This document shows positions 1-16,592 of a DNA stretch of 64,000 bases, in pieces. Made by a program: the position numbers and the translations under genes. Position 1 is the stretch's first letter, and the number at the start of each line of letters is the position of its first letter. Source of the DNA: Nocardia asteroides (GTDB taxonomy: Bacteria > Actinomycetota > Actinomycetes > Mycobacteriales > Mycobacteriaceae); contig CP082844.1 in the NCBI GenBank assembly GCA_019930625.1, positions 62,001 through 126,000 on the forward strand, written 5' to 3'. Below the pieces are notes generated by a model that was given only the letters and a program-made list of their open reading frames with translations, had not been told where the DNA came from and did not search any database.

Positions 1-176
1 TGCAAGGCGTCGGAACGGAATGCGGGGCTCCACGCCGTGTCATGGGGTATCCCGGCGGATGCGAGAGCGTCGCACACGCGGCTCATGCTGAGAACGTCCC
101 CCGCTGTCGCTTCGCCGTGCACGAAGCTGGGCCACCCGGTGACAAGTACCCGCATGTCCGGTGCACCGTGGGTCAT
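1..176 (-). CDS. Polysaccharide pyruvyltransferase family protein, N-terminal part (runs off the window)
   Basis: Only the first 58 codons are present; the gene continues beyond base 1. The visible protein contains VLVTGWPSF and GEATAGD, followed by a helix and AWSPAFR, which resembles the start of actinobacterial pyruvyltransferase-like proteins. Those enzymes add a pyruvyl ketal from phosphoenolpyruvate to a sugar. An ATG at 176 follows a GAGGTGG-like ribosome site; a second in-frame ATG at 155 is the alternative. It lies downstream of the aldehyde dehydrogenase on the same strand, beside the glycan operon, so it may modify the same glycan. The family call is from memory of the motif and rests on a short stretch. 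Confidence 0.6.
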   Translation of the reverse strand, partial: MTHGAPDMRVLVTGWPSFVHGEATAGDVLSMSRVCDALASAGIPHDTAWSPAFRSDAL

Positions 177-341: not shown

Positions 342-1733
342 CTAGATTTTCGCCGGGCGCAGGTGCACGACCTTCGTCTGGGTCATCTCGTCCAGCAACT
401 CGGGTCCGTAACCGAAGCCTGCTCCGCTGGCCCGGCGTGGGTGCGCCGCACCGCCGGGCGCCCCGCCGAACACCGCGTTGATCTTCACCGTGCCCACCGG
501 CAGTTCCCGCCAGGCGCGCTGCGCGTTGGCCATCGACGGAGTGAGCACGGTCGCCGCGAGTCCGTAGTCGTCGTTCGCCGCTTCCGCGATGCCCTGCTCG
601 AACGAATCCACCACCCGCACCGGCGCGACCGGACCGAACGTTTCCTCACGCATGATGCGCATCTTCGGATCGCAGTGGGCCAACACGGTGGCCGGATAGT
701 GCGCGCCGGCACCGTCCGGCACCACGCCGCCGGTCATCAGCTCGGCCCCGTGGTCCACCGCCTCGCGCACGTGGGCGTGGACGTGATCGCGATGGCGCCG
801 GTCGACCAACGGCGCCACCGTCCTGGCCTCGGCTTCGGCGACCAGCGCGGCGAGAAAGGCCTCCGCGACGTCCCGGTGCGCGAAGATCCGCTCGACGGAC
901 ACGCAGATCTGGCCGGAGTTGGCGAACGCGCCGAGCGCCGCCTGACCCGCCGCCCAGACCGGATCGACCCCGGTGTCGACGACGAGCGCGTCGTTGCCGC
1001 CGTTTTCCAGCAATGCCTTGGCACCCGTGGTCGCAGCGCTTTTCGCGATCGACCGTCCGGTGGCCGTGCTACCGACATGCGCGACGACGTCCACATCGGA
1101 ACGTGCGGCCAGCAGCGCGCCGACCCTCCCATCGCCCTGCACCGTCTGCAGAACGCCCTCCGGGAGCGCACCGGCGAGCAGATCGCCCAGCAGCCCGCCG
1201 GTATGCGGCGCGCGTTCACTCGGCTTGTACACGACCGTGTTTCCCGTGACCAGCGCCGCGCCGAGCAATCCGCAGGACACCGCCACGGGATCGTTCCACG
1301 GCGTCAGGGCGATGACGACGCCGCGCGGTTCCCACACCATGAGGTCGGTGGCCTCGAAGTTCCCCTGCAGGCTCTTGCCTCGGTGCACCGGTCCGAGCTC
1401 GGCATATTGCTCCAACGTCGCGGCGCCTGCCGCCACACCCTCCTTGCTCTCGGAGAGTGGACGTCCGGTCTCGACCCGATTGAGCTCGGCGAGTTCATCG
1501 GCACGCTCGCGAAGCAAGGCGGCGCTCGCGCGTAGCGCGGCGGCCCGCTCGCCCGCCGGGGTTCGCGCCCAGACCGGCTGCACACGGTTGGCCAGCTCCA
1601 GGCGCGAATCGATCTCCGCCATACCGGTCATGGCCACCTTGCCGACAGTGGCGCCGGTGGCCGGATCGAGGATCTCGATCGTTTCGGTCGCGTCTTGTCC
1701 TGCGGGAAACGTGACAGCGCTCGGTCCGCTCAT
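342..1733 (-). CDS. NAD(P)-dependent aldehyde dehydrogenase
   Basis: 463 residues, the usual length for the aldehyde dehydrogenase superfamily, which oxidises aldehydes to acids with NAD(P). The cofactor-binding stretch includes VIALTPWND and KPSERAPHTG. The catalytic glutamate lies in ENGGND and the catalytic cysteine in NSGQICVSVERI; EETFGPVAPV is the usual C-terminal motif. The ATG at 1733 was chosen because homology begins just after it; the frame stays open upstream to 1907 with sequence that looks non-coding. It is divergent from the glycan operon, with about 160 bases between them, and is followed by the pyruvyltransferase. The substrate cannot be read from the sequence; a sugar-derived or semialdehyde substrate is only suggested by context. 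Confidence 0.88.
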   Translation of the reverse strand: MSGPSAVTFPAGQDATETIEILDPATGATVGKVAMTGMAEIDSRLELANRVQPVWARTPAGERAAALRASAALLRERADELAELNRVETGRPLSESKEGVAAGAATLEQYAELGPVHRGKSLQGNFEATDLMVWEPRGVVIALTPWNDPVAVSCGLLGAALVTGNTVVYKPSERAPHTGGLLGDLLAGALPEGVLQTVQGDGRVGALLAARSDVDVVAHVGSTATGRSIAKSAATTGAKALLENGGNDALVVDTGVDPVWAAGQAALGAFANSGQICVSVERIFAHRDVAEAFLAALVAEAEARTVAPLVDRRHRDHVHAHVREAVDHGAELMTGGVVPDGAGAHYPATVLAHCDPKMRIMREETFGPVAPVRVVDSFEQGIAEAANDDYGLAATVLTPSMANAQRAWRELPVGTVKINAVFGGAPGGAAHPRRASGAGFGYGPELLDEMTQTKVVHLRPAKI

Positions 1734-1893
1734 ATCGCGGACATTGCCTCGCAGGCGGGGTTTCAAACCGGCTCGTGGCGATAGCTGAAACGCTGTATTT
1801 CTGGACAACCACCAGTTGAACAGCAATAGCCGATGATTCGCTGCGAGCCCGGGCTCGGGTTTGATCCGGCAGTAAAAGGCAAGAGCTATCGAC

Positions 1894-2871
1894 ATGGCCG
1901 AAACCACCGAACGGCTCGGAGTGCTGTTATGGCACGTGCACGGCTCTTGGACGACGTCGTTCGTGCGAGGACCGCACCGCTACCTGATCCCTGTGGTGGA
2001 AGACGGCGGGCCGTGGGGCCGCGGGAGGTGCGGCCGCGACTGGCCCTCCGCCGAGGAGGTGCCCGCAGGCCGGTTGCGGGAAATCGAGCCGGACGTGGTC
2101 GTTCTCCAGCGCCCGGAGGAAATCGCCCTGATCGAGCAATGGCTCGGTCGTCGTCCCGGCGTCGACATTCCGGCGGTCTACGTCGAGCACAACGCTCCGC
2201 GGCCCAGCGCGGCCACCACCAGGCATCCGCTGGCCGAACGCGCCGACATCCCGATCGTGCACGTCACGCATTTCAACAATCTGATGTGGGACAACGGGAG
2301 CACCCCCACCCGGGTCGTGCCGCACGGGATCGTGGACCCCGGCGCGCTGTACACCGGCGAAATCCCGCACGGCGTAGCGCTGATCAACGAACCGGCGCGG
2401 CGCGGAAGGATCACGGGAAGTGATCTGTTGCCCGACTTCGCGATGGCGGGACCCGTCGATCTGTACGGCATCGGAGCGAGCGACTACACGGCGGACAAAC
2501 CGGCCCGCTATCCGATTCGCGGCATCGGCGACTTCGAACAGTCGGCATTGCATCCCGAAATGGCGCGCAGAAGGGTGTATCTGCACACCGCGCGGTGGAC
2601 CTCGCTCGGCTTGTCCCTGCTGGAAGCCATGCACCTGGCCATGCCGGTGGTGGCTCTCGCCACGACCGAGGCCGTCAGCGCGGTGCCGCCGGAGGCCGGG
2701 GCCATTTCGTGCGACGTCGCGTCACTCACCGCGAAGTTCCGCGAATTGCTCCACGAACCCGATCTCGCCGTGCTCGCGGGCAAGTCGGCACGGCAGTTCG
2801 CGCTGGAGCACTACAGCCTCGACGCCTTCCTGCGGCGGTGGGACTCCCTGCTCGCCGAGCTCACCGAATGA
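1894..2871 (+). CDS. GT-B glycosyltransferase, first gene of the glycan operon
   Basis: 325 residues with a GT-B layout. The N-terminal half is a Rossmann-like domain beginning with LGVLLWHVHGSW. The C-terminal half has the nucleotide-sugar-binding region SLGLSLLEAMHLAMPVVAL, which carries the E-x7-E-like pattern of retaining GT1/GT4 enzymes. VVPHGIVDP is the typical start of the second domain. It is somewhat short for the family. It opens an 11-gene plus-strand operon ending at 14299. It probably transfers one sugar of a cell-envelope glycan in the cytoplasm; donor and acceptor are unknown. Confidence 0.75.
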   Translation: MAETTERLGVLLWHVHGSWTTSFVRGPHRYLIPVVEDGGPWGRGRCGRDWPSAEEVPAGRLREIEPDVVVLQRPEEIALIEQWLGRRPGVDIPAVYVEHNAPRPSAATTRHPLAERADIPIVHVTHFNNLMWDNGSTPTRVVPHGIVDPGALYTGEIPHGVALINEPARRGRITGSDLLPDFAMAGPVDLYGIGASDYTADKPARYPIRGIGDFEQSALHPEMARRRVYLHTARWTSLGLSLLEAMHLAMPVVALATTEAVSAVPPEAGAISCDVASLTAKFRELLHEPDLAVLAGKSARQFALEHYSLDAFLRRWDSLLAELTE

Positions 2872-2899
2872 CGGCAGTGTCCCGGACCGGAAAGGCACG

Positions 2900-4168
2900 A
2901 TGATGAAGATCGCGATGGTGTCCGAACACGCCAGCCCGCTCGCCCTGTTGGGCGGCGTCGATGCCGGTGGGCAGAACGTCCATGTCGCGGAGCTGTCCGC
3001 GGCCCTGTGCCGGCACGGGCACGAGGTGACCGTCTACACGCGACGCGAGGACGCCGAGGCGCCGCGCACGGTTACCACCGAACAGGGTTACCGCGTGATC
3101 AATGTCCCGGCCGGACCGGCTCGCGCATTGCCGAAGGACGAATTGCCGCCGTACATGGATGAATTCGGCGACTTTCTGCACGAGCAGTGGCGGCACGAAC
3201 GCCCCGATGTGGTGCACGCGCATTTCTGGATGTCGGGGCTGGCGGCACTGCGTGCCGCTCGGCCCGCGGATATCCCGGTGGTACAGACGTTTCACGCCCT
3301 CGGGGTGGTGAAACGCCGCTATCAGGGCACGCACGACACCAGTCCGGCCGACCGGGTGCGCCTCGAACAACTGATCGCCGAGCGGACCGACCGCATCATC
3401 GCCACCTGTACCGACGAGGTGTTCGAACTGGCCAGGATGGGCGTGCCTCGCTCCCGCACGTCGGTGATCCCCTGCGGCGTGGATCCGGAGCAGTTCACGC
3501 CCGAGGGACCGAGCGCACCGAGGTCGGCCGTGCACCGGATGGTCAGCGTGGGCAGGTTGGTGCCACGCAAAGGTTTCGACATCGCGATCACCGCGCTCAC
3601 CAGCCTGCCCGACACCGAACTGGTTCTGGTCGGCGGCCCGGACGGCGGCGAACTCGCCGATGACCCGGAAGGCGGGCGGCTCCTGGCATTGGCGGACGCG
3701 CTCGGCGTGCGAGACCGGCTCCACATGCTGGGCCGGGTGCCGAGGACACGAATGGCTCCCCTGTTGAGGTCGGCGGATGTGGCCGTGTGCACGCCCTGGT
3801 ACGAACCATTCGGCATGACACCGCTAGAAGCGATGGCATGTGGCGTTCCGGTGGTGGCCGCTGCGGTCGGAGGCCTCATCGATACCGTCGTCGACGGTGT
3901 GACCGGCAGGCTCATCGCCCCGCAGGCCCCCTTGGAATTGGCTGACGCGGTCCGCGATCTTCTGAGTGCGCCCGCACTCAGGCACAGGTACGGTCGCGCA
4001 GGCCGCGAGCGCGTAGAGAAGCGCTATTCGTGGGACCGGATCGCCACGGAGACACTTCGCGCGTACCGCCGGGTGACCGCGGCCGGACGGGCGCGAAACA
4101 ACAGCGAGCCCGGTCGCGGCCGCTCGCTCGACGGCAGCGCCGAGCGACCGGCGACGGGTAGGCGATAG
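2900..4168 (+). CDS. Family 4-like glycosyltransferase
   Basis: 422 residues, typical for GT4 retaining glycosyltransferases. The N terminus has GGVDAGGQNVHVAEL, the acceptor-side loop seen in sucrose-phosphate-synthase-like and MshA-like enzymes. Next come VVHAHFWMSG and VIPCGVDPEQF. The donor site includes VSVGRLVPRKGFD and EPFGMTPLEAMACGVPVVAA with the E-x7-E pattern. Two adjacent ATGs (2900 and 2903) are both possible starts. It lies 28 bases after the preceding transferase and 2 bases before the epimerase-like gene. It likely uses a nucleotide sugar donor, but which one cannot be told. The C terminus has an Arg-rich tail beyond the fold. Confidence 0.85.
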   Translation: MMKIAMVSEHASPLALLGGVDAGGQNVHVAELSAALCRHGHEVTVYTRREDAEAPRTVTTEQGYRVINVPAGPARALPKDELPPYMDEFGDFLHEQWRHERPDVVHAHFWMSGLAALRAARPADIPVVQTFHALGVVKRRYQGTHDTSPADRVRLEQLIAERTDRIIATCTDEVFELARMGVPRSRTSVIPCGVDPEQFTPEGPSAPRSAVHRMVSVGRLVPRKGFDIAITALTSLPDTELVLVGGPDGGELADDPEGGRLLALADALGVRDRLHMLGRVPRTRMAPLLRSADVAVCTPWYEPFGMTPLEAMACGVPVVAAAVGGLIDTVVDGVTGRLIAPQAPLELADAVRDLLSAPALRHRYGRAGRERVEKRYSWDRIATETLRAYRRVTAAGRARNNSEPGRGRSLDGSAERPATGRR

Positions 4169-4170
4169 CC

Positions 4171-5187
4171 GTGTCTCGGCGCTACGAACGTGCGCTGGTC
4201 ACCGGCGGTTGCGGGTTCGTCGGATCGCACCTGTGTGAGCAGTTGCTCGACGCGGGCGCAGCCGTTCTCGCGCTCGACAACTTCGCCACCTCCACACCGG
4301 ACAACGTCGCCCGGCTGCTGGACCGACCAGGGTTCGACCTCGTGCGGCACGACGTCACCGAGCCGTGGCCCGCGGTGGGCTCGTTCGACCTCGTCTTCCA
4401 CCTCGCCTCCGCCGCGTCGCCTCCGGACTACCTGCGGCTGCCGATCGAGACGCTGCGAGCCGGTGCACTAGGAACCGCCAACGCCCTCGACCTGGCCGAG
4501 CGGGATCGAGCTCGATTCGTACTCGCGTCCACGAGCGAGGTATACGGCGACCCGGCCGTCCACCCGCAGCCCGAGAGTTACTGGGGCAACGTCAACCCGG
4601 TCGGTCCGCGCAGCGTCTACGACGAGGCGAAACGTTTTGCCGAGGCTTTGACTATGGCATTTCGCCGGGAACGGGGAGTGCAGACCGGAATAGCACGGAT
4701 TTTCAATACCTACGGTCCGTATATGCGGAGCGACGACGGACGAATGGTTCCGACATTCATCGCTCAGGCCTTGTCCGGCGCACCACTCACCATTGCGGGA
4801 ACCGGCGAGCAAACCCGTTCTCTCTGTTATGTGGAGGACACGGTGCGCGGCCTGATCGCACTCGCTTCCTCCGACCATCCCGGCCCGGTCAATATCGGCA
4901 ATCCGCACGAAATCACCGTCCGGGGACTCGCCGAGGAAATTCGCGCGATAACCGGCAGCCGATCCGTTGTGCATTTTGTCGACGGCGCGATAGACGATCC
5001 GAAACGGCGCTGTCCGGACATCTCGCTGGCTCAGCGCGAACTCGGCTGGCGACCGTTGGTTACCAGGGCAGATGGGTTGCACCGCACGATCGACTGGTTC
5101 GCAGGCGGGGCGTTTATGTCGGCGGAAGAATTACCGCCTGAGCGGCTCGGTACAGCAACCCAGTTTAGCGGCGGCTTCAGCGGGTAG
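4171..5187 (+). CDS. UDP-glucuronate decarboxylase-like (UDP-xylose synthase family) extended SDR
   Basis: 338 residues, GTG start. The nucleotide-binding motif is GGCGFVGSHL and the active-site motif is YDEAK (YxxxK). The stretches TSEVYGDP, ESYWGNVNPVGPRS and IFNTYGPYM match the UXS branch of the extended short-chain dehydrogenases closely, more so than glucose 4-epimerases. UXS decarboxylates UDP-glucuronate to UDP-xylose through a 4-keto intermediate. The last gene of the same operon is a UDP-glucose dehydrogenase that would make UDP-glucuronate, which supports the call. It could instead stop at the 4-keto pentose stage or act on another UDP-sugar. The start lies 2 bases after the preceding stop, so translation is probably coupled. 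Confidence 0.75.
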   Translation: MSRRYERALVTGGCGFVGSHLCEQLLDAGAAVLALDNFATSTPDNVARLLDRPGFDLVRHDVTEPWPAVGSFDLVFHLASAASPPDYLRLPIETLRAGALGTANALDLAERDRARFVLASTSEVYGDPAVHPQPESYWGNVNPVGPRSVYDEAKRFAEALTMAFRRERGVQTGIARIFNTYGPYMRSDDGRMVPTFIAQALSGAPLTIAGTGEQTRSLCYVEDTVRGLIALASSDHPGPVNIGNPHEITVRGLAEEIRAITGSRSVVHFVDGAIDDPKRRCPDISLAQRELGWRPLVTRADGLHRTIDWFAGGAFMSAEELPPERLGTATQFSGGFSG

Positions 5188-5241
5188 CGCCCGTATACGT
5201 CAGCGGGCAGGTCCCGCGCGTCTCGAACAGAAAGGCGACCC

Positions 5242-6864
5242 GTGCGCATTCTGGGAGTAAACGCGGTATTCCACGATCCTGCTGCTGCCGTGGTCGTGGA
5301 CGGCGAGATCGTCGCGGCCGCCGAAGAAGAGCGGTTCACACGTCGCAAACACGGCAAACGGCCGGTGCCTTTTTCCGCGTGGGAACTGCCCGAGCAAGCG
5401 GCAGCATGGTGCCTGGACCGAGCGGGGATACGCCCAGACCAGCTCGACGCGGTGGGCTACTCCTACGACCCGGGGCTGGTCGATCATTCGCTCGGCGGTC
5501 TCGACGACAAAAGCGAGGAGACGCGAACGGATTACGCGTTCAGGGCGCCCGCTTTTCTCCGGGCCGCGTTGCCCGGCCTCGATCCCTCGATCGTGCGCTT
5601 CGTGCGGCATCACGTGGCGCACGCCGCGTCAGCAGCGCTCGCGGCGCCGTTCGGCGACTCGGCGGTCCTCGTGGCCGACGGTCGCGGCGAGAGCCAGTCC
5701 TATCTCGCCGGAGAGTACCGCGACGGCAAGTTCGTGGAGCTGGCGGCACAGCGGCTGCCGCACTCGCTCGGGCTGATGTACGAGGATCTCACCGCACATC
5801 TCGGATTCGCCCGGTCCAGCGACGAATACAAGGTGATGGCCCTCGCCTCCTACGGCACGCCCCGCTTCCTCGACCGCTTCCGGGAACTGGTGTATTCCAC
5901 CGGTGACGGTGGTTTTCGAACCGAACCCGTGGACTGGGAGTGCTTCGCCCCCGCCGCGACCGGCGGTGACCTCGGCGGGGACCACGCCGACCTCGCCGCG
6001 AGCGTCCAACGACGACTCGAGGACGTGTTGCTGGAGTTGACGTCCTGGCTGCATCGTCAGACCGGGCAGCGCAATCTCACACTCGCCGGCGGCATCGCGC
6101 TGAACTGCGTGGCCAACACCCGGCTGCACGACGAAGGCCCCTACGAACGGATCTGGGTGCAACCGGCGGCGGGTGACGCGGGCACCGCCCTGGGCGCCGC
6201 GCTCCAGTTGGCGGCCGAGTTCGGTGAGCGTGCCACCCCGATGTGGGGGGCCGATCTCGGCCGCGAGTGGACGGACCAGGAACTGGAAACCATTCTCCGC
6301 ACGGCGAAGATCCGGTACACCAGGTCCGAAGACGTTGCCGCCGAAGTGGCGCAAGCGCTCGCGGAGGACCGGGTGGTGGCCTGGTTCCAGGGCCGGGCCG
6401 AATTCGGCCCCCGCGCGCTCGGGCATCGTTCGCTGCTCGCGCATCCCGGTCGGGCGGCCAACCTGGAACGCCTCAACGATGTGAAGGGGCGCGAACAGTT
6501 CCGGCCGCTCGCCCCCATGGTGCTCGCCGACCGGGCGTCGGAGATCTTCGGACGCGGACCGTTGCCGAGCCCGTACATGCTGTTCGTCCACGATGTCGCC
6601 CCGGCATGGCGCACCCGGATTCCCGCCGTGACGCATGTGGACGGCACCGCGCGGGTGCAGACCGTCGATCCCGCGGACAACCCGGTCTTAGCGCGGATGT
6701 TGTCGGAGTTCGACCGGCGCACAGGGTTGCCCGTGGTGGTCAACACGAGCTTGAACACCGCGGGCAGGCCGATGGTCGATTCGCCTCGCGACGCCCTCGA
6801 GTGCTTCGGTTCCGCCCCGATCGACCTGCTGGCCATCGGCCCGTTTCTGGTACGGCGGCCATGA
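5242..6864 (+). CDS. O-carbamoyltransferase, NodU/CmcH/TobZ family
   Basis: 540 residues, GTG start. The family uses carbamoyl phosphate and ATP to make carbamoyl-AMP and then carbamoylates a hydroxyl. The N-terminal Kae1-like domain has LGVNAVFHDPAAAVV and EEERFTRRKH, with the metal-site histidines in VRHHVAHAASAA and an aspartate in VADGRGE. The C-terminal domain has GRAEFGPRALGHRS, NDVKGREQFRPLAP and VVNTSLN, all family hallmarks. It lies in the operon between the UXS-like gene and the GT2-phosphatase fusion, overlapping the latter by ATGA. It most likely carbamoylates a sugar of the final glycan; whether the heptose or xylose is unknown. Confidence 0.9.
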   Translation: MRILGVNAVFHDPAAAVVVDGEIVAAAEEERFTRRKHGKRPVPFSAWELPEQAAAWCLDRAGIRPDQLDAVGYSYDPGLVDHSLGGLDDKSEETRTDYAFRAPAFLRAALPGLDPSIVRFVRHHVAHAASAALAAPFGDSAVLVADGRGESQSYLAGEYRDGKFVELAAQRLPHSLGLMYEDLTAHLGFARSSDEYKVMALASYGTPRFLDRFRELVYSTGDGGFRTEPVDWECFAPAATGGDLGGDHADLAASVQRRLEDVLLELTSWLHRQTGQRNLTLAGGIALNCVANTRLHDEGPYERIWVQPAAGDAGTALGAALQLAAEFGERATPMWGADLGREWTDQELETILRTAKIRYTRSEDVAAEVAQALAEDRVVAWFQGRAEFGPRALGHRSLLAHPGRAANLERLNDVKGREQFRPLAPMVLADRASEIFGRGPLPSPYMLFVHDVAPAWRTRIPAVTHVDGTARVQTVDPADNPVLARMLSEFDRRTGLPVVVNTSLNTAGRPMVDSPRDALECFGSAPIDLLAIGPFLVRRP

Positions 6865-8363
6865 CCGGCCATACCGTGGACTACAGCATCGTGATCCCGA
6901 CTACGGGCCGGGAGAGTCTTCGGGTGCTGCTCGAGTCGCTCGACACCGCGGCGGGGCCGAGGCCACAGGAAATCATCGTGGTAGACGATCGGCCCGCAGG
7001 CGGGGAACTGCCGCTGCCCGGCACACGGCCTCCGGTGCGAGTCATCCGCTCGGGTGGTCGCGGACCCGCTGCCGCGAGGAACGCGGGGTGGCGGCATGCC
7101 ACGGGCACGTGGATCGCGTTCCTCGACGACGATGTGCTCACCACGCCGGATTGGCCTGCCCGCTTGGCCGAGGACCTGCACGGTCTGGACGAGAAGACGG
7201 CGGCTTCCACCGCCCGCATCGAGGTGCCGCTGCCGAAATACCGGCGACCGACCGACGAGGAACGAGGAACCGCACGGCTGGCCACCGCGCGGTGGATCAC
7301 AGCGGACATGGCCTACCGCCGGTCGGCGCTGGCCGCGGTCGGAGGCTTCGACGAGCGATTTCCGAGGGCGTTTCGCGAAGACGCCGATCTGGCGTTGCGC
7401 GTCTGCCTCGCCGGTTACGTCATCGCACCCGGGCAACGGCTGACTCGCCATCCGGTCCGCGCGTCCTCGGGGGCCTTGGCCAGTGTGCGAGCACAACGCG
7501 GGAACGCCGACAACGCGTTGCTGCGGCGCAAGTACGGGGCGCGGTGGCGTCAGCGCATCGGTGAAGCCGACGGGCTTCTCCCCCGCCACGCGCTGACCAC
7601 GGCCGCGGGTGCGCTGGCCATGACGCTCGGCATCGCAGGCCGCAAACGCCCCGCCTTCCTGTCGGCGGCGATCTGGATGACGCTGACCGGCGCATTCGCC
7701 ACGCGCCGCATCGCGCCGGGGCCTCGCACGCCCGGCGAAATCGGCCGGATGACGGTGAGCAGCGCGCTGATTCCACCGGCTGCGTGCTGGCACCGCCTGC
7801 GCGGCGAACTGCGCCACCGGCACGCGACCCACACCTCACCGCTGGCGTTGTTGTTCGACCGGGACGACACCCTCATCGTCGATGTCCCCTACCTCGCCGA
7901 CCCGGCCGAGGTTCAGCCGGTGCCGGGTGCCGTCGAAGCGCTGGAGATGGCGCGTGCGGCCGGCATACAGCTCGGCATCGTGAGCAACCAGTCCGGCGTC
8001 GCGAGAGGATTGATCAGCCCCGGGCAACTGGCGGCGGTGAACGCCCGGGTCGAGGAACTGCTCGGACCTTTCGCGACGTGGCAGGTGTGCGTGCACGGCG
8101 AGGGCGACGGCTGCGGGTGTCGCAAACCCGAGCCGGGCATGGTGCGACGGGCAGCCGCGGATCTCGGCGTCGACGTCGGCCGGTGCGTGCTCATCGGCGA
8201 CATCGGCGCCGATATGGACGCCGCCATATCCGCGGGCGCACGCGCGATCCTGGTGCCCACGGCGAGAACCCGCCCCGAAGAGGTGCATCGCGCGCGTCGG
8301 GAAGCGACCGTGGCGCAGAATCTGGCCGAAGCGGTACGGCTGGCGATGGCGGGTTCGCCATGA
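6861..8363 (+). CDS. Fusion: family 2 glycosyltransferase plus HAD heptose-1,7-bisphosphate phosphatase (GmhB-like)
   Basis: 500 residues, two enzymes in one chain. Residues 1 to about 310 form a GT-A family 2 transferase: VVDDRPAG, FLDDDVLTTPDW (metal-binding acidic motif) and FREDADLALR. From about residue 328 an HAD-IIIA phosphatase begins: FDRDDTLIV (DxDxT nucleophile motif), SNQSGVARG, a compact CxH...CxC zinc loop in CVHGEGDGCGCRKPEPG, and LIGDIGADMDAA. Those features fit D,D-heptose 1,7-bisphosphate phosphatase (GmhB), which makes heptose 1-phosphate. The neighbouring GmhA and HldE genes supply the flanking steps. It overlaps both neighbours by ATGA. The histidinol phosphatase branch is a less likely reading given the context. 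Confidence 0.85.
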   Translation: MTGHTVDYSIVIPTTGRESLRVLLESLDTAAGPRPQEIIVVDDRPAGGELPLPGTRPPVRVIRSGGRGPAAARNAGWRHATGTWIAFLDDDVLTTPDWPARLAEDLHGLDEKTAASTARIEVPLPKYRRPTDEERGTARLATARWITADMAYRRSALAAVGGFDERFPRAFREDADLALRVCLAGYVIAPGQRLTRHPVRASSGALASVRAQRGNADNALLRRKYGARWRQRIGEADGLLPRHALTTAAGALAMTLGIAGRKRPAFLSAAIWMTLTGAFATRRIAPGPRTPGEIGRMTVSSALIPPAACWHRLRGELRHRHATHTSPLALLFDRDDTLIVDVPYLADPAEVQPVPGAVEALEMARAAGIQLGIVSNQSGVARGLISPGQLAAVNARVEELLGPFATWQVCVHGEGDGCGCRKPEPGMVRRAAADLGVDVGRCVLIGDIGADMDAAISAGARAILVPTARTRPEEVHRARREATVAQNLAEAVRLAMAGSP

Positions 8364-9403
8364 CGCGCCGGGCGTTGGTGGCACGCATGGACAACATCGG
8401 CGATGTGCTGCTGGCGGGACCGTGCGTGCGCGCGGTGGCCGCGCACGTCGATGCGGTGACGCTGTTGACCGGGCCGCGAGGCCGCGCCGGCGGCGAGCTC
8501 CTTCCGGGTGTGCAACAGGTTCTGACCTGGTGTGCGCCGTGGATCGACCCGGAGCCGCCCGAGATCACCGCGGCGGGCGTGAACGCGTTCATCGAACGGA
8601 TACGCGCACTCGACGTGGACCTGGCGTTGATCCTCACGTCCTTCCACCAGTCGCCGCTACCGCTGGCGCTGCTGCTCAGGATGGCCGGGGTGCGGTGGAT
8701 CGGCGCGATCTCCGACGACTACCCCGGTTCGCTGCTGGATCTACGCCATCGCGTCGAAGGCGATCCCCCCGAAGCCGAACGCGCGCTGTCGCTCGCCGAA
8801 GCGGCCGGTTTCCGATTGCCGCGCGGGGACGACGGGAAACTCGCGGTCAGACAACCACTCCCGAAAGTCGTTGGCCTGACCGGCGAACCGGGCTATGTGG
8901 TGGTGCATCCCGCCGCCTCGGTACCGGCGCGGCAGCCGTCGGCGGCCCGTTCGGCGGCCATTGTCGCCGCGCTGACCGGCGCCGGTCACCGGGTGATCGT
9001 GACCGGGGCCACCTCCGACCGACCGCTCACCGATGCTGTCGCCGGTGTCCACGCCATCGACCTCGGCGGAGCCACCACCCTGCCCGAGCTCGCCGCCGTG
9101 CTCCGCGACGCGAGCGTCGTGGTAGCGCCCAACACCGGTCCGGCGCATCTCGCCGCAGCCGTCGGGACGCCGGTGGTGTCCCTCTTCGCACCGGTCGTGC
9201 CCGCCGAGCGCTGGGCGCCCTACGGCGTGCCGGTGGCGATGCTCGGTGACCAACGCGCGCCGTGCCGGGGCAGCAGGGCCCGGGAGTGCCCGGTCGCGGG
9301 GCACCCATGCCTCGAGTCGATCACCCCCGAGCAGGTCGTCATGGTGGCGGAAGAACTCGGTGCAGGCAAGCGCGAGCGTCCGCGGACAGGAGGTGTGTCG
9401 TGA
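8360..9403 (+). CDS. Family 9 glycosyltransferase (heptosyltransferase-like)
   Basis: 347 residues. The N terminus VARMDNIGDVLLAGPCVRAV is the characteristic opening of GT9 enzymes such as WaaC, WaaF and WaaQ. The C-terminal half carries VVVHPAASVPARQPS, the LPELAAVL segment and VVAPNTGPAHLAAAVGTPVVSLFAPV, the donor-binding core for ADP-heptose. A cysteine-containing tail (CRGSRARECPVAGHPC) resembles the four-cysteine region found in other GT9 proteins. ATGA overlap upstream and GTGA overlap with the sedoheptulose isomerase gene downstream show translational coupling. Together with the heptose synthesis genes it probably transfers a heptose residue in the cytoplasm. Confidence 0.88.
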   Translation: MTRRALVARMDNIGDVLLAGPCVRAVAAHVDAVTLLTGPRGRAGGELLPGVQQVLTWCAPWIDPEPPEITAAGVNAFIERIRALDVDLALILTSFHQSPLPLALLLRMAGVRWIGAISDDYPGSLLDLRHRVEGDPPEAERALSLAEAAGFRLPRGDDGKLAVRQPLPKVVGLTGEPGYVVVHPAASVPARQPSAARSAAIVAALTGAGHRVIVTGATSDRPLTDAVAGVHAIDLGGATTLPELAAVLRDASVVVAPNTGPAHLAAAVGTPVVSLFAPVVPAERWAPYGVPVAMLGDQRAPCRGSRARECPVAGHPCLESITPEQVVMVAEELGAGKRERPRTGGVS

Positions 9404-9963
9404 TCGAGGAGCATTTCGCGGCTTTGCGTACCGCACTGGAGCGCACAAGTCGCTTCGCACCGAATATCCGCAGGTGGGGGCGGGAACTGGCGGAAGTACT
9501 CGACAACGGTGGCAGATTGCTCGCGTGCGGCAACGGTGGCAGCGCCGCCGAAGCCCAGCACCTGACCGGTGAGCTGGTCGGCCGCTTCCGCACCGAGCGG
9601 CGCCCGCTGTCGGCGATCGCCTTGCACGCCGACACCTCGGCGGGCACCGCGATCGTGAACGACTACGGCGCAACCGAATTGTTCGCACGTCAGGTCCGGG
9701 CGCACGGCAGGCCCGATGACGTCCTCCTCTTGCTGTCCACCAGCGGCACCAGCCAGAACGTGGTGGCCGCGGCGAAAGCGGCGCGCGACATCGGCATCAC
9801 CACGTGGGCCATGACCGGACCCGCGCCCAATCCGCTCGCGGCACTGTGCGACGACGCGGTGGCCGTGGAGGCGTCCACCACCGCGACGGTGCAGGAGGTG
9901 CATCTGGTCTTGGTGCACGCCTTGTGCGTGGCGCTCGACGACGCACTGGGGGTACCGACATGA
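9400..9963 (+). CDS. gmhA: Sedoheptulose-7-phosphate isomerase (SIS domain, GmhA-like)
   Basis: 187 residues, a single SIS domain. ACGNGGSAAEAQHLTGELVGRF and LLSTSGTSQNVVAAA match the phosphate-binding loops of GmhA and related isomerases; LHADTSAGTAIVNDYG and the C-terminal HLVLVHALC are also family features. GmhA converts sedoheptulose 7-phosphate to D-glycero-D-manno-heptose 7-phosphate, the first committed step of nucleotide-heptose synthesis. The GTG start at 9400 is supported by an AGGAGG site just upstream and overlaps the preceding stop. DiaA-like proteins share this fold, but the next gene (HldE) decides for GmhA. Confidence 0.88.
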   Translation: MIEEHFAALRTALERTSRFAPNIRRWGRELAEVLDNGGRLLACGNGGSAAEAQHLTGELVGRFRTERRPLSAIALHADTSAGTAIVNDYGATELFARQVRAHGRPDDVLLLLSTSGTSQNVVAAAKAARDIGITTWAMTGPAPNPLAALCDDAVAVEASTTATVQEVHLVLVHALCVALDDALGVPT

Positions 9964-11342
9964 AGCCGTTGGTCGTGGTCGGCGACGTCATTCTCGACGT
10001 CGACATCGAGGGTGTCGCCGACCGGCTATCCCCCGAAGCGCCCGTGCCCGTGGTGGACGTGGATCGCCAGTGGATACGTCCGGGCGGCGCCGGCTTGGCC
10101 GCCGCGCTGGCCGCCCAGTCGGTCGCCGAGGTCGCGCTGATCACCGCGACCACCGACGACCACGACGGCCACATCCTCGCGCGACTGCTCGACCTGCACG
10201 TGCAGGTCGTTCCGATGCTGCTGCGCGGCGAGACGGTACGAAAGACCCGCGTCCGCGCCTCCGGTCAGTCGCTGCTGCGACTGGACACCGGCGACGGGAC
10301 CGCGGACGGCGGTCCGGTGAGCGCCGCGGTCACCAGGACGCTGCGGGCGGCCGGGGCGATCCTCGTCGCGGACTACGGCCGGGGTGTGGCCGCGAATCCG
10401 AGCATCCGGCACCTGCTGACCGACCTGTCCCGGGCCGTGCCGGTGGTGTGGGATCCACATCCGCGCGGTCCGGCGCCCACGCCGGGTGCGTCGCTGGTCT
10501 CACCGAATCTGAGAGAGGCGCGTCAGTTCGCGCCGGGATACGTCGAACCCGACGAGTTGGCGAAGGTGCTTCGCGACGAGTGGTCCGCGGATTCGGTCGC
10601 GGTCACCACCGGATCGGGCGGGGCGGTGCTCGCCAATGGGAAGCGGCTCACCGTGGTGCCCGTGCCCGCCGAGGTGCGTATCGCCGGGCACGCCGGTTCC
10701 GACACCTGCGGCGCGGGCGACCGATTCGCCTCGGCCGCGACCGCCGCGCTCTTCGACGGGTCCACGGTGGCCGATGCGGTGTCGCGCGCCGTGGACGCGG
10801 CGGCCGAATTCGTCGCCGCGGGCGGCGCGGTCACGCTGTCCACGTGCGACAGCGCCGCTGTCACCAAGGCGAGCACCGAGGAAGCGGGCGAGTCGGCGTT
10901 CGAGGTGGCGGCGCGGATCAGGTCGCGCGGCGGCAGACTCGTCGCCACCGGCGGCTGCTTCGATCTACTGCACCCCGGCCATGTGAGCTTGCTGCGCCAG
11001 GCACGCGCCATGGGCGACGCGCTGGTGGTCTGCCTGAACTCCGATGCGTCGGTGCGGCGTCTGAAAGGGCCGCGCCGCCCGATCGTCACCGCACGCGATC
11101 GCGCCCGGCTGCTCACCGAATTGTCCTCGGTGGACGCCGTCGTCGTGTTCGACGAGTCCACACCGAGCGCGCTGCTGGACCGCCTGCGTCCCGATGTGTG
11201 GGTCAAGGGCGGCGATTACTCCGGCGCCGAGCTGCCCGAGGCCGAAGTCGTTCGCGGTTACGGCGGCGAGATCGCGCTCGTCCCCACGGTGCCCAGTTAC
11301 TCGACATCACAGCTGGTCGCCGCGGCCCAGGCCGGCGGCTGA
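9960..11342 (+). CDS. hldE: Bifunctional D-glycero-beta-D-manno-heptose 7-phosphate kinase / 1-phosphate adenylyltransferase
   Basis: 460 residues in two domains. Residues 1 to about 310 are a PfkB-type kinase: VVGDVILDVDIEG, RLSPEAPVPVV (an HldE signature) and DTCGAGDRF for phosphate binding. From about residue 325 a nucleotidyltransferase follows: ATGGCFDLLHPGHVSLL with the HxGH motif, CLNSDASVRRLKGP, and the KGGDY region. The enzyme phosphorylates heptose 7-phosphate at O-1 and, after GmhB action, adenylylates heptose 1-phosphate to ADP-heptose. It overlaps gmhA by ATGA. No separate HldD epimerase is visible in the window, so the product may remain the D,D form. The nucleotide preference (ADP rather than GDP) is inferred from the family. 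Confidence 0.9.
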   Translation: MKPLVVVGDVILDVDIEGVADRLSPEAPVPVVDVDRQWIRPGGAGLAAALAAQSVAEVALITATTDDHDGHILARLLDLHVQVVPMLLRGETVRKTRVRASGQSLLRLDTGDGTADGGPVSAAVTRTLRAAGAILVADYGRGVAANPSIRHLLTDLSRAVPVVWDPHPRGPAPTPGASLVSPNLREARQFAPGYVEPDELAKVLRDEWSADSVAVTTGSGGAVLANGKRLTVVPVPAEVRIAGHAGSDTCGAGDRFASAATAALFDGSTVADAVSRAVDAAAEFVAAGGAVTLSTCDSAAVTKASTEEAGESAFEVAARIRSRGGRLVATGGCFDLLHPGHVSLLRQARAMGDALVVCLNSDASVRRLKGPRRPIVTARDRARLLTELSSVDAVVVFDESTPSALLDRLRPDVWVKGGDYSGAELPEAEVVRGYGGEIALVPTVPSYSTSQLVAAAQAGG

Positions 11343-11362
11343 CCCGACAGCGAAGGAGCACG

Positions 11363-12052
11363 ATGCGAACCCTCGGCAATATCTTGATCACCGGCGGCGC
11401 TTCCGGGCTCGGCGCGGCCGTTACCGCCGCCGTGCGCGAGAACGGGGGCCGCCCGTACGTGATCGACCGGGTGGAGCCCGAGACGCCGGTCGACTTCGTG
11501 CGTGCCGACCTCGCCGATACCGACGCCGCCGAACAGGCTGTGCACGAGATCATCGAGCGTGCGGGCGGGCGGATCGACGGCGTGTTCACCGCCGCCGGAA
11601 CCGACGCGTGCGGCCCGCTGGACAAGGTGCCTACGAAGAAGTGGGAATACGTGGTCCAGGTCAACCTGTTCGGCACAGCCGCCGTGATCCGTGCCGCCCT
11701 TCCGGCCCTGCGGGAAAGCAAGGGAACGGTAGTCACCTGCGCTTCCACCCTGGGCATCAAAGCGGTCGGTGACGCGACCGCCTATTGCGCTTCGAAATTC
11801 GGCGTCGTCGGCTTCACCAGGGCGCTCGCCGCCGAGACGGCGGGCAGCGTCGGGGTGACGTTGCTGATCCCGGGGGGAATGCATACCGCGTTCTTCGATG
11901 ACCGCGACGAGCAGTACAAGCCGCCGCCCGACGCGAAACTCAACCAACCCCACGACGTCGCCGCCGCGGTGGTCTTCGCGCTGAGCCAGCCGCCCGGCTG
12001 CGAGGTCCGGGAGATGGTCGTGTGCGCGTCGGAAGAAGGTTCGTGGCCTTGA
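11363..12052 (+). CDS. Classical short-chain dehydrogenase/reductase
   Basis: 229 residues, a classical SDR. The NAD(P)-binding motif is ITGGASGLGAAV (TGxxxGxG) and the catalytic motif is YCASKFG (YxxxK) preceded by the serine in VVTCASTLG. GAAGSG-like core strands and GVTLLIPGGMHT are typical. A GAAGGAG site precedes the ATG by 7 bases. It sits in the heptose operon between HldE and the second GT9. A sugar keto-reduction or oxidation step is likely, perhaps on a UDP-sugar or heptose intermediate, but the substrate is not deducible. Confidence 0.8.
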   Translation: MRTLGNILITGGASGLGAAVTAAVRENGGRPYVIDRVEPETPVDFVRADLADTDAAEQAVHEIIERAGGRIDGVFTAAGTDACGPLDKVPTKKWEYVVQVNLFGTAAVIRAALPALRESKGTVVTCASTLGIKAVGDATAYCASKFGVVGFTRALAAETAGSVGVTLLIPGGMHTAFFDDRDEQYKPPPDAKLNQPHDVAAAVVFALSQPPGCEVREMVVCASEEGSWP

Positions 12053-12990
12053 CGCACTCGATTCTCGTGCTCCGCGCACTCGGGCTCGGCGATCTGCTGA
12101 CCATCGTGCCCGCCCTGCGCGGACTGAGAAATGCCTACCCGGACGGCCGGGTGGTGCTCGCCGCGCCGGAACCGCTCCGCGAGCTGGTGGGCCTCATCGA
12201 CGCGGTCGATGAACTGCTGCCGACCGCGGGACTCGGTGCGCTGCGGTGGCCGGGCCCGCCGCCGAGGCTGGCGGTCAACTTGCACGGCAGCGGGCCGGAG
12301 AGCATCCGAGATCTGCTGGCGTCACGCCCGAATACCCTGCTGACCCATCACCATCCGGATTTCCCCGAGTTGCCCGGCCTCGAGTGGCGCGAGGACATGC
12401 ACGAGGTGGAGCGCTGGTGCCGCCTGCTCGAATACGGAGGAATCGGCGCCGATCCCACCGCGCTGCTGCTGCCCGCCCCACCGGAGCCCGCCGAGTCGAA
12501 CGTGGTCGTGATCCATCCGGGCGCGGCTTATCCCGCGCGCCGCTGGCCATCCGAACGTTTCGCGCGCGTGGCTCGGGAACTCAGCGGCAACGGCCACCGA
12601 GTGGTGATCACCGGGACAGCCGGGGAGATGCGATTGGCGAACGCGGTCGCCGAGAAAGCGGGGTTGCCGCCCTCAGCGGTGTACGCGGGACGCACCGCCC
12701 TGGCCGATCTCGCCGCGCTGGTGGCCCACGCGGCCCTGGTCGTGTGCGGCGACACCGGCGTAGGGCATCTCGCCACCGCCTTCGGCACACCGTCGGTACT
12801 GCTGTTCGGCCCCACGCCTCCGCACCGGTGGGGACCGCCCGCGGCCGCGAGACACCACGTGACGCTGTGGGCGGGGGAAGCCGGCGATCCGAATACCGAC
12901 CATCCGCATCCCGGACTGCTCATGGTGCGACCGGAACAGGTGCTGACGGCCGCGACCGGGTTGCTCGCAGAGCGGGTGCGCCATGGGTAG
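12049..12990 (+). CDS. Second family 9 glycosyltransferase (heptosyltransferase-like)
   Basis: About 313 residues. ILVLRALGLGDLLTIVPALRGL is the GT9 opening, and VVIHPGAAYPARRWPSERFA plus VCGDTGVGHLATAFGTPSVLLFGP form the ADP-heptose donor site. The start is uncertain: a TTG at 12049 gives a TTGA overlap with the preceding stop in keeping with the other junctions, while in-frame GTGs at 12043 and 12022 are alternatives; GGAAGAAGG at 12031-12039 could serve either. It overlaps the next gene by 8 bases. It likely adds a second heptose or related sugar to the same acceptor as the first GT9. Confidence 0.85.
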   Translation: MTHSILVLRALGLGDLLTIVPALRGLRNAYPDGRVVLAAPEPLRELVGLIDAVDELLPTAGLGALRWPGPPPRLAVNLHGSGPESIRDLLASRPNTLLTHHHPDFPELPGLEWREDMHEVERWCRLLEYGGIGADPTALLLPAPPEPAESNVVVIHPGAAYPARRWPSERFARVARELSGNGHRVVITGTAGEMRLANAVAEKAGLPPSAVYAGRTALADLAALVAHAALVVCGDTGVGHLATAFGTPSVLLFGPTPPHRWGPPAAARHHVTLWAGEAGDPNTDHPHPGLLMVRPEQVLTAATGLLAERVRHG

Positions 12991-14299
12991 TCGCGTCGGC
13001 GTGGTGGGCGCCGGTTATGTGGGGCTCACCAGTGCCGCGTGCCTCGCCCACTTGGGACATCACGTGGTCTGTGTCGACAATGACGAGTCGAAGGTAGCGG
13101 CTCTTCGCGCGGGTACGGTCGCGATCGTCGAGCCCGGCTTGCCGGAGCTGGTGCGCGAGGGGCTCTCGGAGAACCGGCTCTTCTTCACGTCCGACCCAGC
13201 GTCGCTGCACGAATGCGAAGTGGTCCTGTTGTGCCTTCCCACGCCCATGGGCGCCGGCGGCACGGCCGACCTGGGCGTACTCGAGGACGCGCTCGAAACG
13301 TTGTCCACCGTCCTGCCGCCGGATTGCGTGCTCGTGTCCAAGTCCACCGTGCCGGTGGGCACGGCGGCGCGCATTCCCGCGCTGTCCGGCCTCGCGAGCA
13401 CGGCAGTCGTCAGCAACCCCGAATTCCTCCGGGAGGGCCACGCGGTGCAGGACTTCCTGCGTCCCGACCGCATTGTGATCGGTGCGGCCGAGCAGGACCG
13501 GGAGTCGGCCGACCGTGTCGCTGCGCTCTACGCGGGCACGGGCGCGCCGGTGCTGCGATCGGATTCGGCCAGCGCGGAACTCGCCAAGTACGCCAGCAAC
13601 GCGGTCCTCGCGGTCAAACTCTCGTTCGTGAACACGCTCGCCGAACTGTGTGAACGGGTCGGAGCCGATATCACGAAAGTCACCGACGCGATGGGAATGG
13701 ACGATCGGATCGGCCCGGACTTCTTGGCGCCCGGCCCCGGCTGGGGCGGCTCGTGCCTGCCCAAGGACACGCGCGCGCTCTTGCGAGCCGCGGAGACTTC
13801 GGGCGTCGACTTCGCGATCGTCCGTGATGCCCTGCGCGCCAACGACCATCAGCACGCGATGGTGATGCGCAAGATCCGTCGCGCGGCCACCGGTGCGGTC
13901 GACGGCTCACTGGCGGGCACGCGCATCGGCGTACTCGGCCTCGCGTTCAAAGCCGGGACGGGCGACCTGCGCGACTCCCCCGCCGTCGCGGTCACGCGGC
14001 AACTGGCCCATCACGACGCCACGGTCACCGCATACGACCCGTGCGTCCCGGACTCGAGCGCCCGCGACCTGCGCGGCATCCGCGTGGTGGACGACCCGTA
14101 TCTGGTGGCGAAGGACGCGGGCGCGATCGTCATCCTCACCGAATGGCCCGAGTTCCGTTCCCTCGACTGGTCGAGACTCGCGACCGACGTCGACCGGGCT
14201 GTCATCGTGGACACCAGGAATCTGCTCGATGAGCAACTGCTGAGCGGCACCGGATTCACCTTGCTGGGCAACGGTACTGTCGGCTCCTTCAGTGGCTGA
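12983..14299 (+). CDS. UDP-glucose 6-dehydrogenase
   Basis: 438 residues, the usual length. VGVVGAGYVGLTSAACLAHLG is the N-terminal Rossmann motif; the catalytic cysteine is in GPGWGGSCLPKDT; LGLAFKAGTGDLRDSPA opens the C-terminal domain. The enzyme oxidises UDP-glucose to UDP-glucuronate with two NAD. It is the last gene of the operon and would feed the UXS-like decarboxylase at 4171. The GDP-mannose dehydrogenase branch shares these motifs, but the UXS partner favours UDP-glucose. The start overlaps the end of the GT9 gene by 8 bases. Confidence 0.88.
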   Translation: MGSRVGVVGAGYVGLTSAACLAHLGHHVVCVDNDESKVAALRAGTVAIVEPGLPELVREGLSENRLFFTSDPASLHECEVVLLCLPTPMGAGGTADLGVLEDALETLSTVLPPDCVLVSKSTVPVGTAARIPALSGLASTAVVSNPEFLREGHAVQDFLRPDRIVIGAAEQDRESADRVAALYAGTGAPVLRSDSASAELAKYASNAVLAVKLSFVNTLAELCERVGADITKVTDAMGMDDRIGPDFLAPGPGWGGSCLPKDTRALLRAAETSGVDFAIVRDALRANDHQHAMVMRKIRRAATGAVDGSLAGTRIGVLGLAFKAGTGDLRDSPAVAVTRQLAHHDATVTAYDPCVPDSSARDLRGIRVVDDPYLVAKDAGAIVILTEWPEFRSLDWSRLATDVDRAVIVDTRNLLDEQLLSGTGFTLLGNGTVGSFSG

Positions 14300-14634: not shown

Positions 14635-14682
14635 ATCGCACCATCGCAAGCCCCGCGTCGGACCATCGAGGAGGTGGGTGGA

Positions 14683-15222
14683 GTGGATCGTGGATGGGCC
14701 GGTGAACAGCTGGTAGAAGCGGCCCAGCATGGCGACCGGGAGGCGATCTCCGCGATCATCGATGGGGCACATCCACACGTGCGGCGCTTCGCACAGCACT
14801 TGTGCGCGTCCTCCGCCGACGCCGAAGACGCCGCGCAAGAGGCCTTGATCATCCTGTATCGCAAGATCGGGACCCTGCGCGCCGCGACCGCCATCGCGTC
14901 GTGGATGTTCCGCATCGTCCGCAACGAATGCCTGCGCCGCACCCGATACCTGCTCGACCGCGGACCGCAGTTCGGTCCCGCCGTGCCCGACGCTGTCGCC
15001 TCCGCCGAGGACGAAGTCCTGCGCCGGTTCGACACCGACCAGCTCACCCAGGCGATCATCGCGTTGCCCGATCTCCAGCGCAGAGTCCTGATCATGCGCG
15101 ATGTGCTCGGTTACCCCGGCCGCGCGACTGCCGACGCGCTCGGCCTCAGCACAGCGGCGATGAAATCGCAGCTGCACCGCGCACGCGCCACGATCCGCCA
15201 CGGCCTCAACCCCGATCCCTAG
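14683..15222 (+). CDS. ECF-type RNA polymerase sigma factor
   Basis: 179 residues. Region 2 includes DAEDAAQEALIILYRKIGTL and ASWMFRIVRNECLRR; region 4 includes LPDLQRRVLIMRDVLGYPG and the helix-turn-helix ADALGLSTAAMKSQLHRAR. The GTG at 14683 was chosen because GAGGAGG lies 8 bases upstream; the open frame reaches much further upstream but without homology. No anti-sigma gene is adjacent; instead a redoxin gene follows after 76 bases, suggesting an oxidative or thiol stress role or simple co-transcription. Confidence 0.85.
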   Translation: MDRGWAGEQLVEAAQHGDREAISAIIDGAHPHVRRFAQHLCASSADAEDAAQEALIILYRKIGTLRAATAIASWMFRIVRNECLRRTRYLLDRGPQFGPAVPDAVASAEDEVLRRFDTDQLTQAIIALPDLQRRVLIMRDVLGYPGRATADALGLSTAAMKSQLHRARATIRHGLNPDP

Positions 15223-15298
15223 CCCGCCACGGGACAACGACTTTCGGCCGTCAATCGCGCCATCGCTACCACCCGTACAAATCGAAGGAAACTTCACC

Positions 15299-16449: not shown

Positions 16450-16487
16450 CTCGTCGAGTTCGCGCCATCGATATCCGTGAGCAGACT

Positions 16488-16568: not shown

Positions 16569-16592
16569 CATCGCGAGCATACGGACGGAGGA

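Follow-up and report, generated by a model that had tools for sequence, protein, structure and literature searches.

The cwg operon of Streptomyces coelicolor, described as a set of 12 genes (SCO6179-6190) that is a target of sigma-E, is induced by vancomycin and is predicted to make a cell wall glycan, has reportedly been regarded as an envelope-stress target since a paper of 2002. A later study lists cwgB-E and cwgG-J, with cwgH as a phosphoheptose isomerase and cwgI as a bifunctional synthase/transferase, and labels cwgD a dehydratase and most other cwg products plain transferases (PMC5839063); another places sco6178, a 'putative deacetylase', beside the operon (PMC6767563). Two described routes supply activated heptose. 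In Escherichia coli, ADP-L-glycero-beta-D-manno-heptose is synthesized by GmhA, HldE, GmhB and HldD. The GDP-heptose route employs a guanylyltransferase, and gmhD of Rhodococcus ruber YYL, which likewise serves a heptose-dependent surface polymer in a genus related to Nocardia, is reported to be required for capsule or exopolysaccharide (PMC12298843, PMC12786566). A further point of reference is the SigF regulon of Mycobacterium smegmatis, with a promoter consensus GTTT-N14-19-GGGTA and with hemerythrin and catalase members, in a paper whose main text contains neither of the words heptose and carbamoyl (PMC4694148); a similar consensus is recognised by Bacillus subtilis SigB and nine S. coelicolor homologues, according to PMC8346170. 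Here we analyse a window of 64,000 nucleotides of Nocardia asteroides (contig CP082844.1, positions 62,001 to 126,000), in which an operon of 11 genes at positions 1894-14299 forms the major part of a locus that is, by sequence comparison, a rearranged homologue of cwg. We consider it fairly probable that this is a cwg-type envelope glycan cluster that is fed by ADP-D,D-heptose and UDP-xylose and induced by a SigF/SigB-type sigma factor in Nocardia and Pseudonocardiaceae.

The comparison with cwg was made via a genome, G228, that is almost certainly a Streptomyces because it combines a cwgA-type promoter, a cwg-like gene order and a divergent deacetylase gene. When the published sigma-E promoter of cwgA was sought with up to three mismatches in 394 genomes of the class, two matches were obtained. 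The match in G228 (two mismatches) ends about 180 bp before the inferred start of a gene for UDP-glucuronate decarboxylase (UDP-xylose synthase, UXS), the distance printed for S. coelicolor being 147 bp. It heads a 12-gene operon in the order UXS, O-carbamoyltransferase (CarbT), GT2, HAD, GT9, GT4, GT4, GmhA, HldE, GT9, GT2 and GT2, and a polysaccharide deacetylase gene diverges from this operon, just as sco6178 lies beside cwg. The order agrees with the products given in PMC5839063, although cwgD appears there as a dehydratase and most of the others simply as transferases. The second match, in genome G354 (three mismatches), was rejected as a cwg counterpart, as its locus contains no cwg genes, although a gene resembling the G228 deacetylase is present there. 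At the same threshold the promoter has no match in the Nocardia genome, and none in the upstream region within the window. The 12 G228 proteins were compared with a database limited to the window and the stretches L113 and L108; each of them finds its best counterpart within the window locus or the leftward extension of that locus, at 48-69% identity, and 11 of these 12 matches are reciprocal. The cwgD counterpart matches the HAD half of a GT2-HAD fusion, and for that of cwgG a second GT4 elsewhere in the genome (in L108) is nearly as close (57% versus 58%).

The 11 genes, all on the plus strand, fill 1894-14299 exactly, with intergenic gaps of -8 to +54 bp and five 4-bp overlaps, and thus form the tight operon that an earlier inspection of this DNA (the sequence-only reading) had proposed; the enzyme classes that it named agree with the Pfam and NCBIfam calls. 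First come a GT4-fold glycosyltransferase, here GTa (1894..2871; PF00534; cwgF homologue, 54%), an MshA-like GT4 glycosyltransferase (2903..4168; cwgG homologue, 58%), UXS (4171..5187; cwgA homologue, 62%) and CarbT (5242..6864; PF16861, PF02543; cwgB homologue, 69%). These are followed by a GT2 glycosyltransferase fused to a GmhB-like HAD phosphatase (6861..8363; homologous to cwgC and cwgD, 54% and 56%), the GT9 glycosyltransferase GT9a, of the heptosyltransferase fold (8360..9403; PF01075; cwgE homologue, 62%), the sedoheptulose-7-phosphate isomerase GmhA (9400..9963; cwgH homologue, 63%) and the heptose-7-phosphate kinase/heptose-1-phosphate adenylyltransferase HldE (9960..11342; cwgI homologue, 48%). 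The operon ends with a short-chain dehydrogenase/reductase (SDR; 11363..12052; PF00106), the second GT9 enzyme, GT9b (12049..12990; PF01075; cwgJ homologue, 51%), and UDP-glucose 6-dehydrogenase (UGD; 12983..14299; PF03721/PF00984/PF03720). The interval 1894..14299, which had been taken for the full locus, is too narrow, since minus-strand genes extend it leftward and out of the window. These are an aldehyde dehydrogenase gene divergent from the operon (342..1730; PF00171, 374 bits), a polysaccharide pyruvyl transferase-like gene, of which the 5' part occupies 1..176 and which continues to genome coordinate C1:61268 (PF04230 matches the part beyond the window), and, downstream of the latter and outside the window, homologues of cwgK (C1:60387-61256; 52.6%) and cwgL (C1:59486-60382; 58%). 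Genes were called with a codon-score script, and some of the starts are off; several neighbouring genes were first named by eye, with Pfam checks run afterwards.

Thus homologues of all 12 families, cwgA to cwgL, are gathered in one locus, the last two just outside the window. In contrast to cwg, they do not form a single operon in the order A to L, but two divergent units with a rearranged order, a fusion of GT2 and HAD, additional SDR, UGD and aldehyde dehydrogenase genes, and a pyruvyltransferase-like gene that lies inside the locus here and slightly beyond cwgL in G228. Moreover, a SigF-type motif is present and a sigma-E match absent. The gene set had been thought undescribed, which it is not, being homologous to the cwg operon of S. 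coelicolor (SCO6179-6190). The question whether the same cluster had already been assigned to a known product has a divided answer: the gene set is published as cwg, but no product structure for it was found in the open literature, an absence that is unproven because subscription papers, the 2002 original among them, lay outside the search. The open-literature passages available likewise include none that links cwg-type genes to SigF. From these comparisons, what appears to be new is the SigF-type promoter motif on a cwg-type cluster, the gene set as such being already known as cwg.

The sugar chemistry proposed for the operon, namely ADP-heptose, UDP-xylose and O-carbamoyl transfer, is supported by NCBIfam and Pfam matches, by solved relatives and by alignments with E. 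coli proteins. The three steps represented by GmhA, by the kinase and nucleotidyltransferase domains of HldE and by GmhB all have counterparts, in which catalytic and metal-binding residues are retained relative to E. coli MG1655. Retained are equivalents of Glu65 and His180 in GmhA, GAGD and HxGH in HldE and, in the HAD domain, DxD together with the C-x-H...C-x-C metal site, residues that act in catalysis or metal binding. The nucleotidyltransferase domain scores above the NCBIfam cut-off (185 versus 181.5 bits) and is the sole match to that model in the genome, and the HAD domain exceeds the cut-offs of broader models only (histidinol-phosphate phosphatase domain, 108 versus 84; HAD-IIIA, 102 versus 45). 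The first three steps of the E. coli pathway are thereby shared; unlike in E. coli, the GmhB-like domain is fused to a GT2, and no HldD 6-epimerase scores above the cut-off in the whole genome (best 105 bits versus 274.6). Since HldD is missing at this threshold, ADP-D-glycero-beta-D-manno-heptose, with the D,D configuration, is the probable donor. Nocardia has no lipopolysaccharide (LPS), and the two GT9 enzymes fit the PF01075 fold family without reaching the equivalog cut-offs of WaaC/WaaF/WaaQ-type LPS heptosyltransferases. A GDP-heptose route was rejected for this locus because HldE is of the PfkB kinase plus nucleotidyltransferase type, an adenylyltransferase in place of the guanylyltransferase of that route. 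The best solved relative of UXS is human UXS1 (335 bits, the next family reaching 130), as expected of a UDP-xylose synthase, and those of CarbT are 7xb6 (312 bits) and TobZ (291 bits). Hence the combination of heptose, pentose and carbamoyl chemistry in a mycolic-acid genus is supported at the level of sequence.

The grouping of the 11 genes is not due to chance, because the same order recurs in other genomes. The search for this order that the sequence-only reading had called for was made among the best 80 of 423 related loci, and found it unchanged in nine of 11 Nocardia loci (the remaining two lying at contig ends) and 10 of 11 Mycobacterium loci; elsewhere the order is reshuffled block-wise. 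Gene-by-gene reading of two Mycobacterium loci (L050, L068) showed a GT2 gene on the minus strand between GT4 and UXS. Within the same 80 loci HldE is present in all by construction, followed by GmhA (78), SDR (77), GT9b (74), GT9a (72), CarbT (69), UXS (67), HAD (66), GT4 (65), GT2 (64), GTa (63), UGD (43) and aldehyde dehydrogenase (22, including loci of Nocardia, Amycolatopsis, Pseudonocardia and Actinoplanes); 17 of these loci are 21 kb or shorter, and the longer ones without CarbT are L034, L036 and L082. Neither of the two Streptomyces-type loci examined encodes a counterpart of the SDR. The set is found in Nocardia, Amycolatopsis, Prauserella, Saccharomonospora, Pseudonocardia, Mycobacterium, Nonomuraea, Microbispora, Sphaerisporangium, Actinomadura, Glycomyces, Actinoplanes and others. 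Across the 394 class genomes, GmhA matches (E 1e-40) occur in 89 and CarbT orthologues in 80, the latter defined by E below 1e-200 (80 of the 81 genomes with matches). Both are present in 72 genomes, GmhA alone in 17, CarbT alone in eight and neither in 297, and in 67 of the 72 they lie within 15 kb of each other. Within Nocardia the cluster is patchy, with HldE of at least 74% identity in 13 of 59 genomes, including the present one and one partial case. Among the best-scoring loci, HldE is 60-67% identical to Amycolatopsis and 53-59% to Mycobacterium proteins, although Nocardia is nearer to Mycobacterium; together with the patchiness, these identities make lateral transfer of the cluster possible.

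The SigF/SigB-type motif, GTTT-N15-GGGTA, is located upstream of CarbT at 5163..5186 on the plus strand, where it overlaps the last codons of UXS, and is the single GTTT-N14-16-GGGTA site in the 64-kb window. It first came to light ahead of GTa in Nocardia and Mycobacterium (seven Mycobacterium-type loci read have GTTT-N15/16-GGGTA there) and was then tested, so that the GTa counts are a discovery set and those for CarbT and UXS are not. GTTT-N14-16-GGGTA occurs at 56 of 150 starts of cluster transcription units, as against two of 374 control starts drawn from 36 other 20-kb stretches of 18 genomes, mostly other than those of the cluster loci; the 14 control genomes that are named include no Streptomyces. 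Starts with a same-strand gene less than 60 bp upstream and stretches under 200 bases were dropped from this test. In a second count 58 of 216 upstream stretches contain the motif, where shuffled sequences give an expectation of 0.19; L105, L108, L109 and L113 were omitted before both counts. In a comparison that took as much control DNA as cluster DNA from those 18 genomes, the motif occurs 35 versus five times and the reversed motif zero versus two times. Upstream of CarbT, it is present in all 11 Nocardia, all 13 Amycolatopsis and all three Prauserella loci, and in one locus each of Glycomyces, Pseudonocardia and Saccharomonospora. For the carbamoyltransferase unit, therefore, a match to the consensus promoter lies upstream and is conserved in relatives.

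Genome-wide, the N15 form occurs 38 times, as opposed to six for its reverse, and 22 of the 30 sites read precede a gene start, compared with 13% of random window positions. One site precedes an rsbW-like gene (27.2 bits, cut-off 27.4), after which comes a gene for a sigma factor containing regions 2, 3 and 4; others precede genes for hemerythrin, Hva1, DUF4383 and DUF326 proteins. As it precedes the rsbW-like/sigma-factor pair and the hemerythrin, Hva1 and DUF4383 genes, the motif is, judging from its genomic context, very likely the SigF-type promoter of the strain studied. A second type of element occupies the divergent intergenic region: GTTTGA-N13-GGCAA at 1859..1882 (plus strand), with a SigF-like -35 and a variant -10, ends 11 bases before the ATG of GTa, and GTTTGA-N14-GGCAA at 1744..1768 (minus strand), which has the N13 form in other Nocardia, faces the aldehyde dehydrogenase gene. 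These conserved divergent GTTTGA-N13/14-GGYAA elements hint at a SigF-like promoter whose -10 is a variant, and at transcripts with almost no leader. GTTTGA-N13-GGYAA is present at 16 of the 150 unit starts, all of them from Nocardia, and at none of the 374 controls. It occurs five times in the genome: two of the four other sites lie 40-47 bases before open frames of 110-119 codons of unidentified function, one has only a TTG-started frame at +62, and one has no following frame. The case for this variant element rests on its conservation in Nocardia, because its other genomic sites precede no identified gene.

The surroundings of the cluster also point to stress. Stress-family genes (SigB/F, RsbW, STAS, CsbD, catalase and topoisomerase IB among them, the families having been chosen from the loci examined) are found no more than 20 kb from the cluster in 13 of 18 genomes, as against four of 18 control stretches, and in eight versus two of 13 once five genomes of one genus are removed. 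Some of the queries came from tested genomes, and restriction to queries from named loci returns the same 13 and four of 18; a common SDR-type family among them matches in five cluster and three control genomes. The CsbD-like gene upstream of the cluster scores 33 bits, below the Pfam cut-off of 40. The presence of the SigF-type motif both at cluster starts and before the rsbW-like/sigma-factor pair makes it probable, on these sequence grounds, that the glycan is a general-stress product in Nocardia and Pseudonocardiaceae. Such a role would fit the salt activation of cwgA and SCO6178 in S. coelicolor described in PMC13011467, as well as that of a Frankia ADP-heptose:LPS heptosyltransferase (PMC5563000), which may or may not belong to a cwg-type cluster.

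In the biosynthesis that we envisage, GmhA would convert sedoheptulose 7-phosphate to D-glycero-D-manno-heptose 7-phosphate, the kinase domain of HldE would phosphorylate this product, the HAD domain would then take off the 7-phosphate, and the adenylyltransferase domain of HldE would form ADP-D-glycero-beta-D-manno-heptose, the D,D form being used as such with no HldD. In parallel, UGD and UXS would provide UDP-glucuronate and UDP-xylose. Assembly would fall to two GT9, two GT4 and three GT2 enzymes, with the GT9 pair as the likely heptosyltransferases and the GT4 and GT2 enzymes attaching xylose and other sugars; the carbamoyltransferase would cap a hydroxyl and the pyruvyltransferase-like protein may add a ketal. 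A general-stress sigma factor of the SigF/SigB type would switch the cluster on in Nocardia and Pseudonocardiaceae, taking the place that sigma-E, an envelope-stress factor, has in Streptomyces. This proposal builds directly on the gene content, homology, retained catalytic residues, linkage and promoter motif; from them we infer the enzyme substrates, the order of addition, the acceptor, export, promoter activity and biological role.

Several observations weigh against this proposal. With respect to the enzymes, the HldE kinase (131 versus 345 bits), GmhA (161 versus 209), the GmhB-like domain (110 versus 178) and both GT9s (53 versus 170 and 83 versus 185) fall below their NCBIfam equivalog cut-offs. 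With respect to control, the first gene of the operon, GTa, has only the variant -10, no SigF motif was found in the upstream stretch read of the CsbD-like gene, and the motif precedes CarbT in only two of eight Actinomadura loci, in one of two from Actinophytocola and in none from Nonomuraea (0/10), Microbispora (0/3), Sphaerisporangium (0/5), the Streptomyces type (0/2) or Mycobacterium (0/10, or 0/11 with G101), although in Mycobacterium it precedes GTa instead in six of 10 loci. Furthermore, the promoter and neighbour counts ignore phylogeny, five of the 18 genomes coming from one genus, and the assignment of G228 to Streptomyces is itself deduced from its sequence. Finally, a crude hydropathy scan detects no membrane-type segments in six of the 11 operon proteins and weak ones in five, soluble-type GmhA included, which is odd for a wall polymer, and no flippase, polymerase or lipid-carrier transferase is present among the identified genes of the locus, flippases elsewhere in the genome not having been looked for.

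We infer the product to be a glycan or glycolipid, as the sequence-only reading had suggested, with evidence pulling in two directions as to its location: the sigma-E link favours an envelope product, and the lack of an identified polymerase, flippase or lipid-carrier gene, together with the absent or weak membrane segments, speaks for cytosolic synthesis of a short product. The latter leads to the most serious alternative, which we regard as rather unlikely, namely a soluble heptose oligosaccharide, cytosolic or secreted, that acts as a stress protectant and is built by the MshA-like GT4 on an inositol- or sugar-phosphate-type acceptor. MshA is indeed the closest relative of this GT4 (248 bits, below the cut-off of 462.5), and the SigF-type motif, the stress-gene neighbours, the salt activation of cwgA and SCO6178 and a major-facilitator (MFS) gene adjoining the cluster would all suit a solute of this kind. 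Nevertheless, control of cwg by sigma-E and vancomycin indicates the envelope, export could rely on general flippases encoded elsewhere in the genome, and a set of seven glycosyltransferases is large for a small solute, so that an envelope glycan is still preferred. It is very improbable, by comparison, that the cluster makes a secondary metabolite that is secreted and bears a carbamoylated sugar, as in the bleomycin disaccharide. BlmC may resemble HldE. Parallel roles can be drawn from PMC7017467, which assigns BlmC as sugar synthase, BlmD as carbamoyltransferase, BlmE as transferase, BlmF as hydroxylase and BlmG as epimerase; however, the present cluster spans many genera and is published as an envelope-stress operon in Streptomyces, and no non-ribosomal peptide synthetase or polyketide synthase gene was recognised by eye in 14 loci, with the first 85 residues of each neighbour seen. 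The least probable of all is that the HldE and GmhA homologues act on another sugar phosphate and make no ADP-heptose, a notion that the sub-equivalog scores of HldE kinase, GmhA and the GmhB domain, with a HAD domain above broader models only, would allow, but one that faces the co-occurrence of all three steps, key residues matching those of E. coli and a nucleotidyltransferase domain that passes its cut-off as the sole match in the genome.

A wider generalization may be offered tentatively, with rather more doubt than confidence: a large part of the actinobacteria would make a single conserved stress glycoconjugate, carbamoylated and containing heptose and xylose, with the cwg genes, whose control would have been rewired between lineages, sigma-E answering envelope stress in Streptomyces and SigF/SigB answering general stress in Nocardia, Mycobacterium and Pseudonocardiaceae. 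Were this true, a Gram-positive mycolic-acid genus would make ADP-D,D-heptose under stress. ADP-D,D-heptose is the ALPK1 ligand of Gram-negative bacteria, and the view of this innate-immune signal as a Gram-negative mark would need revision if mycolic-acid actinobacteria make ADP-heptose. The cross-genus comparison yields a core set, comprising the isomerase, the kinase/adenylyltransferase, the phosphatase, two GT9s, UXS, the carbamoyltransferase, GT4s and GT2s, and it predicts sugar donors and SigF control in several genera outside Streptomyces. The question of the cwg product thereby becomes directly testable through the predicted heptose.

Certain features around and beyond the locus deserve mention. 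An MFS protein that appears very similar by eye is encoded beside cwgL here (L113:7738-9144) and two genes after UGD in N. abscessus (L016:15101-16507); this placement could reflect an exporter or be a mark of rearrangement. The right flank, at 14674-22579, contains an ECF sigma factor, an AhpC/TSA protein, an APH-family phosphotransferase and a Mutator-family transposase, and by eye it is not common to the right flanks of L016, L019, L020, L024 and L025, with the exception of a like ECF sigma gene in L019 at 20282-20848. A second heptose-related spot in the same genome (L108:10134-14737; C1:4016134-4020737) encodes an MshA-like GT4 (62%) and an HldE kinase-only protein (45%); next to these are encoded a PAS-ANTAR protein and a fragment containing sigma-70 regions 3 and 4. 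Another Nocardia (G036) has a variant cluster (L109:7324-19998) composed of GT9, kinase-only HldE, GmhA, HAD, GT9, GT4s, SDR and a cwgK-like GT2; its 20-kb stretch has no match to the carbamoyltransferase, the operon GT2 or UXS, and includes a separate full-length HldE-like protein (38%).

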